DNA of 64,000 bases from the NCBI GenBank assembly GCA_030834695.1, contig JAUQXK010000116.1:1-64000 (forward strand). Reading direction: 5' to 3'. The notes under the pieces were generated by a model, which was not told the DNA's origin, did no database searches, and saw nothing but the letters and a program-made list of their open reading frames with translations. Source of the stretch: Desulfobacterales bacterium. GTDB taxonomy: Bacteria; Desulfobacterota; Desulfobacteria; Desulfobacterales; SpSt-501. Position numbers and translations under genes: made by a program. This document shows, piece after piece, positions 5,425-38,070 of the stretch (its first letter is position 1; each line of letters starts with the position of its first letter).

Positions 5425-6192
5425 TTACCACCATCGAATCAGTTCCGTGACGTGTTTGCGGATGGCGACGAAATCCGGATCGATTAAGCTGCGGGGTCTG
5501 GGCAGGTCGACGTTCACCTCCGCTTTGATGTTGGTCGGCTTGTTGCTCAGCACCAGAATCCGCTCGGCCACATACACAGCCTCTTCGATGTTGTGGGTAA
5601 CGAAGATGACCGTGCTTTTTAACGTCTGCCAGAGTTTTACGAGCTCATCCTCCAGGTAATAGCGCAATTTGACATCCAGCTGTCCGTACGGTTCGTCCAT
5701 CAGCAGCAGGTCGGGGTCCACGGCAAAGGCCCGGGCGACGGTGATGCGTTGGACCATGCTGGCGGAGACCTGGTTGGGATAGAGGCTCTGAGTCTCCGTG
5801 AGCCCGACCAGGTCCAGCATGAAATCAACCCGCTCGTTGATTTTTGCGGCGGGGAAGCCCTTGATCTGCATTCCGTAGGCCACATTCTGGCGGACGGTCC
5901 GCCACGGCAGGCAGGTCGGCTCCTGGAACACGAAGGAAATGTTGTGCCGCTTGGGGTCCGCGACCTCGCCATCGATGAAAATATTGCCTTCACTGGTGGG
6001 GATGAGTTTGGAAAGGCAATTGAGAAAGGTGGTCTTGCCGCAGCCCGTCGGACCGACGATGGCCAGGAATTCGCCCTGGGCGACATGGAAATTGATGCGG
6101 TTCAGCACCAGGAGATCGCCGAATCGCTTGGTCAGGTTCTTGACTTCGATTTTGACTTGTTTCGTGTCCGGTTTCAGGGCTGCAACTTGCAA
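5425..6192 (-). CDS. ABC transporter ATPase, nitrate/sulfonate/taurine type (first of two)
   Basis: A 255-residue ATPase with Walker A GPTGCGKTT, Q-loop FVFQEP, Walker B LLLMDEP and switch FVTHNI. The signature is VSASMVQRITVARA, in which the usual LSGGM/Q is replaced by VSASM; this weakens the canonical LSGGQ motif and may make this the degenerate partner of an asymmetric ATPase pair. I chose the TTG at 6192 as start because AAGGAG lies 6 bases upstream and gives the usual family length; longer readings run into the aldehyde dehydrogenase gene. The C-terminal DLPRPRSLIDPDFV is typical of SsuB/TauB-like subunits. Confidence 0.9.
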   Translation of the reverse strand: MQVAALKPDTKQVKIEVKNLTKRFGDLLVLNRINFHVAQGEFLAIVGPTGCGKTTFLNCLSKLIPTSEGNIFIDGEVADPKRHNISFVFQEPTCLPWRTVRQNVAYGMQIKGFPAAKINERVDFMLDLVGLTETQSLYPNQVSASMVQRITVARAFAVDPDLLLMDEPYGQLDVKLRYYLEDELVKLWQTLKSTVIFVTHNIEEAVYVAERILVLSNKPTNIKAEVNVDLPRPRSLIDPDFVAIRKHVTELIRWW

Positions 6193-35936: not shown

Positions 35937-36711
35937 ATGAGCTCCATCAATTCAGATAAGCGACGGGGAGTGTTATGGGGACTTTGCATTGGCGATGCGC
36001 TCGCCATGCCGGTGCATTGGTATTACAACCGCAGCGCCCTGTCAGATGATTACGGCTGGGTGACGGAATCCCTCGCTCCCCGCAATCCCCACCCGGACAG
36101 CATCCTCTTCCGCGCAACGTACACGGCGCCGGCCCCAAAGGGGAGATCCTGCACGACCAGGCACCCTACTGGGGGCGAGAGGGGACGCGTTACCATTACC
36201 ACCAGTTCCTCAAGGCCGGTGAAAACACGCTGAATGTCAAGCTCTGCAGCGTGCTCATCGATTCGCTCAATCACCGCGGCCGGTATGACGGAGACGACTA
36301 TCTGCACCGCTACATCGCCTACATGACCACGCCGGGCAACCACCGCGACACCTGCATCGAGGAATACCACCGGAATTTCTTCAGCAACTACGCCAGGGGC
36401 ATCCCGGCCCGGCAGTGCGGCTCCATTGAAAAACACATCGGCGGCCTGGTGGGGATGGTTCCGGTGCTGGCCTTCTACCCCGGGGGTTCTTCCAAAGCCC
36501 GATCAGCTGCCCTTGAGCATCTGGCGCTGAAATACCCCAACGATCCGGAACAGGCACTCGTCGTCAACACCGACCTGGGGGTGACAATGTCTACCGCGGA
36601 GGGGGGTTGGGGGCGCTGCTGGGAGCGGAGCACGGAAAAGCCGGGCTCCCGCCGCGATGGGTGGATGGCTTGACCGATCCGCCTCCGGAGCTTTCACCGC
36701 CTGTCGAATGA
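35937..36711 (+). pseudogene. Broken ADP-ribosylglycohydrolase family gene
   Basis: Three pieces of one protein in different frames. The N-terminal piece begins with the DraG-type RGVLWGLCIGDALAMPVHWYYN. Near 36140 the frame shifts and GEILHDQAPYWGREG...YDGDDYLHRYIAYM follows. At about 36571, inside a G-run, it shifts again to GGDNVYRGGLGALLGAEHGK, the metal-binding C-terminal motif. Both shifts fit single-base losses in homopolymer runs. The joint ALEHLALKYPNDPEQA also looks like a fusion across an internal deletion of some 80-100 residues. Family members remove ADP-ribose from proteins or small molecules. Sequencing error could explain the indels but not the deletion. Confidence 0.72.
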
Positions 36712-36741: not shown

Positions 36742-36771
36742 TTGACATTCCCATGCGGGGTGCAGTAGGTT
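36742..36771 (+). promoter_or_regulatory. Possible promoter of the trp leader
   Basis: A perfect -35 TTGACA (36742-36747) lies 18 bases before TAGGTT (36766-36771), a weak -10. Transcription would start very near the leader ATG at 36778, so either the leader is leaderless or the second in-frame ATG (36790) is used. Confidence 0.4.
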
Positions 36772-36777
36772 AACGCC

Positions 36778-36843
36778 ATGCAGCGACGGATGGAACCCAG
36801 AGTCATTTCAGCAGCACGGAACTGGTGGTGGCGCGTCTCCTGA
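36778..36843 (+). CDS. trpL: Trp leader peptide (trpL-like) with three consecutive Trp codons
   Basis: A 21-codon open frame, ATG 36778 to TGA 36841, too short for routine gene calling. Codons 16-18 are TGG TGG TGG, followed by Arg-Val-Ser and the stop; the local context is RNWWWRVS. Three Trp in 21 residues is very unlikely by chance, and the peptide sits upstream of trpD with a terminator-like hairpin between them, the arrangement of ribosome-mediated trp attenuation. A second ATG at 36790 could be the true start (17 residues). No convincing RBS is seen. Confidence 0.72.
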   Translation: MQRRMEPRVISAARNWWWRVS

Positions 36844-36880
36844 GGGGAGGTGTGCCCGCCGCTTGATATCGACGATCCCG

Positions 36881-36920
36881 AAACCGCGAGGCCATCTCCC
36901 AGGGCCTCGCGGTTTTTGTT
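36881..36920 (+). terminator. trpD attenuator (terminator hairpin)
   Basis: AAACCGCGAGGCC and GGCCTCGCGGTTT form a perfect 13-bp stem (36881-36893, 36903-36915) with a 9-base loop, followed by TTGTTT. It starts 37 bases after the leader-peptide stop and 73 bases before trpD. The 5' arm can partly pair with the Trp-codon segment TGGTGGCGCG, a possible antiterminator. The fold has not been computed. Confidence 0.72.
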
Positions 36921-36926
36921 TCCCTG

Positions 36927-36950
36927 GGCCGTGGGGCACTTCCCACGGCC
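36927..36950 (+). other. Second leader hairpin before trpD
   Basis: GGCCGTGGG, a 6-base loop and CCCACGGCC form a perfect 9-bp stem directly after the attenuator hairpin. No clear U-run follows. It may help protect the processed mRNA or take part in an alternative leader fold. Confidence 0.5.
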
Positions 36951-36987
36951 TCTGTGTTTGGGGCGAACCCACAAGGAGGAAACGAAC

Positions 36988-38070
36988 ATGATCAAACAAG
37001 CAATTACAAAGGCGATCAACCGCGAAAACCTTTCCGAATCCGAAATGCAGGCGGCCATGGAGGAGATGTTGAACGGAGCGGCGCCGCCCGTGCTGGTGGG
37101 ATCTTTTCTGACCGCTCTGCGGATGAAGGGCGAAACCGAGGAGGAGATCACCGCGGCCGCCCGCGTGGCGCGCGGCCAGGCGCGCCGGATCGACGTGAGC
37201 AACCATCTGGTCAACCTGGATCGGGAGGAGATCAACATCGACGATGAAACCATCCTGGACACCTGCGGCACAGGCGGAGACGGAACCAATACCTTCAACA
37301 TCTCCACCGCAACGGCCCTGGTGGCAGCCGGCGCCGGCGTCCGCGTCGCGAAACACGGCAGCCGTTGCGTGTCGAGCGCATGCGGCAGCGCCGACGTTCT
37401 GGAGCAGCTCGGGGTCAACCTGGATGTGCCTCCCACGGCGGTCGAGACGTGCATTCGCGAGATCGGCATCGGATTTTTGTACGAGCCCCTTTTCAACACG
37501 GCCATGGCCCGCATTGCGGAGGTGCGGCGCCAGCTCGGGTTCCGCACCCTGTTCAACCTACTCGGCCCGCTGACCAACCCGGCGGGAGCCTCCATCCAGG
37601 TGCTTGGCGTGTACGATCCGGCTCTGACCGAAAAAATGGCCAGTGTACTGAAAAATCTCGGCACGCGCGAAGCCTTCGTCTTTTGCGGCGAGGGCACTCT
37701 GGATGAAATCAGCATCTGCGGGCCGACCCGCATGTCCCATCTGAGGAATAAGACGATTCATACCTTCGAGATGACGCCCGACGCTCTCGGCCTGCCGCGG
37801 GCGACGCCAGCCGACATCCGCGGCGGCAGTGCGCGGGAAAATGCGCAAATCATTCGTGACATTCTCCAAGGAGCCAAAGGGCCTCGCCGGGATGTCGTGC
37901 TGGTGAACGCGTCCGCAGCCTTTGTCGCCGCCGGGCTGAATTCCGATTTTAAAGCGGGGATTCAGCGCGCGGCTCAATCGATCGACTCCGGCCGAGCCCA
38001 GCAGAAACTGGACGCCCTCATCGACTTCAGCCGCTCGTGCATTCAGTCGGTCCGGTCCCTGGCGCAGTGA
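36988..38070 (+). CDS. trpD: Anthranilate phosphoribosyltransferase
   Basis: A 360-residue TrpD. Glycine-rich loop CGTGGDGTNTFNIST (about 93-107) binds phosphoribosyl pyrophosphate; KHGSRCVSS (122-130) contacts both substrates; RTLFNLLGPLTNPAG is also diagnostic. It transfers the phosphoribosyl group to anthranilate, the second step of tryptophan synthesis. ATG 36988 has AAGGAGG upstream; the earlier in-frame extension covers the leader hairpins and is rejected. No other trp gene is in the window, yet it has its own leader peptide and attenuator, so it is a one-gene trp unit. Flanking genes are decayed. Confidence 0.93.
   Translation: MIKQAITKAINRENLSESEMQAAMEEMLNGAAPPVLVGSFLTALRMKGETEEEITAAARVARGQARRIDVSNHLVNLDREEINIDDETILDTCGTGGDGTNTFNISTATALVAAGAGVRVAKHGSRCVSSACGSADVLEQLGVNLDVPPTAVETCIREIGIGFLYEPLFNTAMARIAEVRRQLGFRTLFNLLGPLTNPAGASIQVLGVYDPALTEKMASVLKNLGTREAFVFCGEGTLDEISICGPTRMSHLRNKTIHTFEMTPDALGLPRATPADIRGGSARENAQIIRDILQGAKGPRRDVVLVNASAAFVAAGLNSDFKAGIQRAAQSIDSGRAQQKLDALIDFSRSCIQSVRSLAQ

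Follow-up and report, generated by a model that had tools for sequence, protein, structure and literature searches.

What does a tryptophan attenuator control when the gene behind it is a solitary trpD? The question is raised by a locus in the window, the 64,000-nucleotide stretch of contig JAUQXK010000116.1 from a Desulfobacterales bacterium that was analysed here. The sequence-only reading had proposed ribosome-mediated Trp attenuation and, beyond it, a split trp operon in which trpD keeps a sensor of its own. Comparison with related genomes bears out the attenuator, and the split operon gives way to the explanation that we consider best, at a probability of about 0.6: a Trp attenuator, proposed to act as a relay, placed on a diverged and maintained TrpD paralogue (TrpD*) rather than on step 2 of a split pathway. 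The leader, its helices, their conservation, the gene absence, the altered active site and the purifying selection come from sequence comparison; from these we infer the regulation, the relay and the role of the protein. The locus comprises the following features, in which helices are named by their paired arms.

36742-36771, + strand: sigma-70-type promoter read from the sequence, with −35 TTGACA (36742-36747), −10 TAGGTT (36766-36771) and an 18-bp spacer
36778-36843, + strand: leader open reading frame (ORF) of 21 codons, MQRRMEPRVISAARNWWWRVS, starting 6 nt after the −10 box
36823-36831, + strand: regulatory codons TGG TGG TGG, read from the sequence; WW to WWWW, WYW or WCW in ten relatives
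36827-36860, + strand: pause hairpin 1:2, arms 36827-36840 and 36846-36860; 14 pairs, 4 of which vary on both sides; paired in 88% of cells over 11 sequences
36845-36900, + strand: antiterminator 2:3, GGGAGGTG (36845-36852) with CATCTCCC (36893-36900) plus an inner extension; −24.9 kcal/mol in the nascent fold with arm 1 occluded, same topology in other leaders
36881-36920, + strand: terminator 1 (3:4), 13-bp GC-rich stem and U-tract; 5 pairs changed on both sides across relatives
36904-36937, + strand: alternative helix 4:5, −19.2 kcal/mol in the nascent fold
36927-36950, + strand: second hairpin 5:6, arms GGCCGTGGG (36927-36935) and CCCACGGCC (36942-36950); paired in 97% of cells; 4 pairs vary on both sides
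36973-36979, + strand: trpD ribosome-binding site AAGGAGG, read from the sequence
36988-38070, + strand: trpD*, 360 residues, an anthranilate phosphoribosyltransferase (AnPRT) paralogue by sequence, alignment and profile, with KHGSR instead of KHGNR

The arrangement first described for the locus was recovered in full at these coordinates: promoter, 21-codon ORF, three TGG codons, a gap of 37 bases between the leader stop and the first hairpin, the 13-bp hairpin and the ribosome-binding site. The stem of terminator 1 is formed by AAACCGCGAGGCC (36881-36893) and GGCCTCGCGGTTT (36903-36915), with TTTTT at 36913-36917. Absent from the earlier description is hairpin 5:6, which lies between terminator 1 and trpD and is terminator-like, with a U-tract that is weak in the window and strong in relatives. 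The leader ORF of the window, 6 nt past the −10 box, has what is by its sequence a leaderless or nearly leaderless start, a point likewise missing from the earlier description. All 11 leader-trpD* loci have TTGAC in the corresponding position, and the −10-like element that follows it ends 6-12 nt upstream of the leader's ATG, so these leaders are probably read from a leaderless or near-leaderless message. Directly upstream of the promoter, an ADP-ribosylglycohydrolase gene (35937-36673) is present as two pieces in different frames, both with PF03747, and is frameshifted or decayed.

The same layout of promoter, Trp leader and hairpins precedes trpD* in ten other genomes. Early matches came from G002, G034 and G014, and then from L087, which is chromosome CP070694 of Desulfobacterales bin60; with five leaders as input, a covariance model (R1) extended the search to 11 loci, in G000 (the window's own genome), G002, G034, G129, G014, G022, G154, G174, G071, G120 and G160. 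A similar leader was found before trpE as well, and the Trp codons, promoter, antiterminator and terminator are kept in relatives, the reverse of the loss of Trp codons or hairpin that had been named as telling against attenuation. Across the 11 leaders, helices 1:2, 3:4 and 5:6 contain 13 pairs changed on both sides, a number reached by 2 of 500 shuffles; counted by cells, 28 have changes on both sides, which none of 500 shuffles reached. In the leader structure 92.7% of cells are paired, compared with 38-50% when the partners are slid.

Alternative folds of the leader region yielded a predicted pause hairpin, antiterminator and terminator. When arm 1 is hidden by a ribosome stalled at the Trp codons, folds of the nascent RNA give the same 2:3 antiterminator across the leaders (−16 to −30 kcal/mol), and terminator 3:4 forms when the ribosome has reached the stop codon or is absent. 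The 2:3 fold is moderately stronger than in shuffled sequences (z −0.9 to −3.8); with this modest excess, the weight of the predicted antiterminator lies in its recurrence. The locus has the short ORF and the clustered Trp codons just upstream of a terminator that characterize attenuators, and in the predicted folds 2:3 and 3:4 exclude each other, and arm 1 overlaps the Trp codons. This comparison supports an E. coli-type, ribosome-mediated Trp attenuator and also points to trpD* as the gene it would control. With sufficient Trp-tRNA, the ribosome would reach the leader stop and cover arm 2, terminator 3:4 would form and transcription would end; with Trp-tRNA scarce, the ribosome would stall on the TGG codons, 2:3 would form and trpD* would be transcribed. 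An Rfam search of the window at the gathering threshold gave no match; RF00513 (Trp_leader) matches 36820-36920 at 21.7 bits (E 0.032), below its gathering score of 41, and gave zero matches in 20 related loci.

The protein behind the leader belongs to a paralogue separate from canonical TrpD. The active-site loops for PRPP and anthranilate are changed in all 11 TrpD* proteins: nine lack the PRPP motif GTGGD, and none has KHGNR...SS unaltered. An alignment of ten of the proteins shows that the Mg/pyrophosphate residues and the anthranilate Arg are conserved (roles of motifs and residues taken from PMC9835598). Both loops are retained in the 23 canonical TrpDs aligned, save for isolated substitutions (GTGGS in L088, for example). 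The window protein is the mildest case, with GTGGD kept and KHGSR for KHGNR (N to S); it lacks the fully intact PRPP loop, and by its retained GTGGD catalysis may survive. On the tree, TrpD* needs two changes and a single clade is not rejected (p-AU 0.34); by this analysis one origin and two independent origins both fit. No conserved neighbour of trpD* was found in a comparison of operon partners. An AAA/SMC-like ATPase gene follows trpD* in G014, the Olavius algarvensis Delta 4 endosymbiont (L034 9068-9805), and in G022 (L036 6260-6976), and a TrpB2-like gene lies about 7 kb away in G014 and less than 2 kb away in G022.

If trpD were one step of a split pathway under its own sensor, the remaining trp genes would be expected elsewhere in the genome, or missed by the assembly. 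G000 has one trpD; trpE, trpC, trpF and trpA, the four other trp genes that the search of its assembly covered (rated 100% complete, in 149 contigs), were not found. The missing genes could lie in assembly gaps; the bacterium appears, by this search, to be without the rest of the Trp pathway, and none of these four genes was located to pair with the solitary trpD. The same pattern recurs in relatives. The divergent trpD is the only trpD in G129, G120, G154 and G174, where neither trpC nor a full trpF was found (the PRAI match in G120 is a 48-residue fragment just above the cut-off); G154 and G174 are single-contig chromosomes whose sole TrpD has lost GTGGD. Searches found no trpE, trpC or trpA in G034, where PRAI is matched only by a 21-bit fragment below the cut-off, and no trpC in G160, so that trpC is missing in six leader-trpD genomes besides the window's. 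G002, G014, G022 and G071 carry leader-trpD* together with a separate trp operon, and TrpD* is there an extra, divergent paralogue; in most relatives with an operon trpE stands behind its own leader. In G002, of the same genus as the window's organism, the operon trpD-C-F-B-A is cut by a contig end, its contig beginning within trpD. Sisters with ordinary trp genes and no trpD* seen occur in four families (G001 with G003-G006; G093; G148, G169 and G211; G104). An ordinary split operon can draw on the profile score of the window protein (P0001, 391 bits against a TIGR01245 cut-off of 199; other TrpD* 319-371 bits), on its intact GTGGD, Mg, pyrophosphate and anthranilate Arg residues, and on the related genome G011, where canonical trpD and trpE stand behind separate leaders. 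Against these points stand the absent genes, the single-contig chromosomes, the coexisting operons and the altered loops, and we regard a split operon as unlikely; the sequence-only reading is probably not correct on this point. G011 itself is a truly split pathway with several sensors, Trp leaders (L267, L256, L178) preceding trpE, canonical trpD, and a trpD fragment with trpC; it is the sole genuine split with separate sensors that was seen.

An absent pathway and a degenerate active site in seven genomes would also be compatible with a decaying relic, left with its leader once the pathway had gone, and the leader in G104 with no gene directly downstream shows that loss does occur. The reading frames are open in all 11 loci, though, and dN/dS values of 0.14, 0.09 and 0.09 in three TrpD* pairs resemble those of canonical TrpDs (0.06-0.16), indicating that trpD* is maintained; the kept pyrophosphate/Mg residues and anthranilate Arg and the covarying leader structure point the same way. 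A relic is very improbable and was rejected on dN/dS. A diverged paralogue under Trp attenuation is the reading we prefer, with trpD* probably kept for a non-biosynthetic or altered role. The preferred and most likely guess for that role, judged from the sequences, is a non-catalytic protein (pseudoenzyme) or one with an altered substrate, which Trp starvation would induce. The fullest version of this proposal, a pseudoenzyme effector of Trp starvation adopted after Trp synthesis was lost and driven by a six-arm, two-terminator relay used for aromatic amino-acid genes throughout the order, is itself rather doubtful. A Trp sensor in bacteria apparently unable to make Trp points to a starvation response. 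The sequences also make the enzyme name anthranilate phosphoribosyltransferase not safe for TrpD*: the proteins pass the curated AnPRT cut-off with, in most of them, the PRPP motif gone and the pathway absent, so automatic pathway reconstruction would be misled.

The leader design is widespread, with model matches in 339 of 389 genomes of the order. Most leaders retrieved precede trpE; others, rich in Trp, Phe or Tyr, precede DAHP synthases and ADTH synthase. A Tyr-rich example (...YSYDWYYYFSTDLPAVR; YSYDWYYYF) with double hairpins lies ahead of a DAHP synthase in the window's own genome (L210, G000:C15:23683-23835). In many genomes of the order, Phe/Tyr-rich leaders (L253, L257, L283) precede ADTH synthase, the archaeal-type enzyme for the first step of aromatic synthesis. 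As a check for bias of the RNA model towards double hairpins, trpE loci were found by protein instead: all eight counted have a Trp leader and six have two T-tailed hairpins, with three loci lacking a Trp leader set aside as pabB-type, along with G044, whose trpE has no Trp leader. In G104 (L234, C150, about 5663-5815, minus strand) the Trp leader without a gene directly downstream resembles the one before trpD* in its sister G160; it may be a leader RNA that stands alone or the scar of a deletion.

Since the second, terminator-like hairpin separates terminator 1 from the gene, it would need switching too, and for this reason a relay is proposed: 2:3 would trap arm 3, the freed arm 4 would pair with arm 5, and hairpin 5:6 would be disabled as well. 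The chain 1:2, 2:3, 3:4, 4:5, 5:6 is possible in all 90 leaders modelled, among them leaders of trpE and DAHP synthase from across the order. Mean duplex energies are −17.2 kcal/mol for 4:5, −20.0 for 3:4, −20.9 for 5:6 and −11.75 for the control pairing 3:6; 4:5 is stronger than the control in 83 of the 90. Pairing within a leader exceeds pairing across leaders with z −7.8 for 4:5 and −3.0 for 3:6, and 4:5 still gives z −6.5 in the 47 leaders below 75% identity.

A simpler view takes the second hairpin as a plain back-up terminator or a stabiliser of the mRNA 5′ end, and 4:5 as a by-product of two similar hairpins; it bears on the relay alone and can be combined with the other explanations. 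Arms 3 and 5 are indeed alike, so part of the 4:5 pairing is automatic. In the trpD* leaders neither 4:5 nor 3:6 pairs better over the seven core pairs; hairpin 5:6 has a weak U-tract in the window, and differences between the hairpins at the loop end favour 3:6 by 25 to 1. Against this, a plain terminator between switch and gene would mean permanent silencing, and at the seven basal positions, where the hairpins differ, the change keeps 4:5 and breaks 3:6 in 127 cases against 4 (25 against 4 without two positions that contribute 102 cases, probably shared by descent). Selection on the 4:5 pairing is suggested. The by-product view is a serious contender, a little short of an even chance, and on the modelled folds we lean slightly towards a relay attenuator that switches its two terminators jointly. 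If real, the relay would show how one stalled ribosome can govern two coupled terminators and so tighten attenuation. No description of a leader-peptide relay was found in the open literature searched, most subscription papers lying outside its scope.

Among known systems, the E. coli-type trp attenuator (RF00513) shares the short ORF with Trp codons and the mutually exclusive 1:2, 2:3 and 3:4 helices; the window differs in its sub-gathering score, second hairpin and 4:5 helix, near-leaderless start and control of trpD* alone. The rimP-leader (PMC2965389) also has two tandem terminators and inverse motifs, and differs in having no leader peptide and no amino-acid control. In Sinorhizobium meliloti, where only trpE(G) is attenuated among three trp operons, trpLE(G) resembles the window in its leaderless trpL and Trp-codon attenuation (PMC7298713), whereas the window attenuator precedes a divergent trpD, and no trpE was detected in that genome. 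The TrpD2/YbiB proteins (PMC9835598, PMC10123104) likewise have the AnPRT fold without the PRPP-binding motif; TrpD* is about 50% or more identical to canonical TrpDs, compared with less than 20% for YbiB, is acidic (pI 5.0-6.2) and falls far short of the YbiB cut-off in profile score. Membership of the window protein in TrpD2/YbiB was rejected (53 bits against a cut-off of 185; pI 5.7, not basic). In bacilli, His leader peptides before hisZ and hisS* paralogues (PMC2965389) provide the same principle, control of an enzyme paralogue by a leader for the enzyme's own amino acid, for a different amino acid and protein family and with pathway loss not described there.
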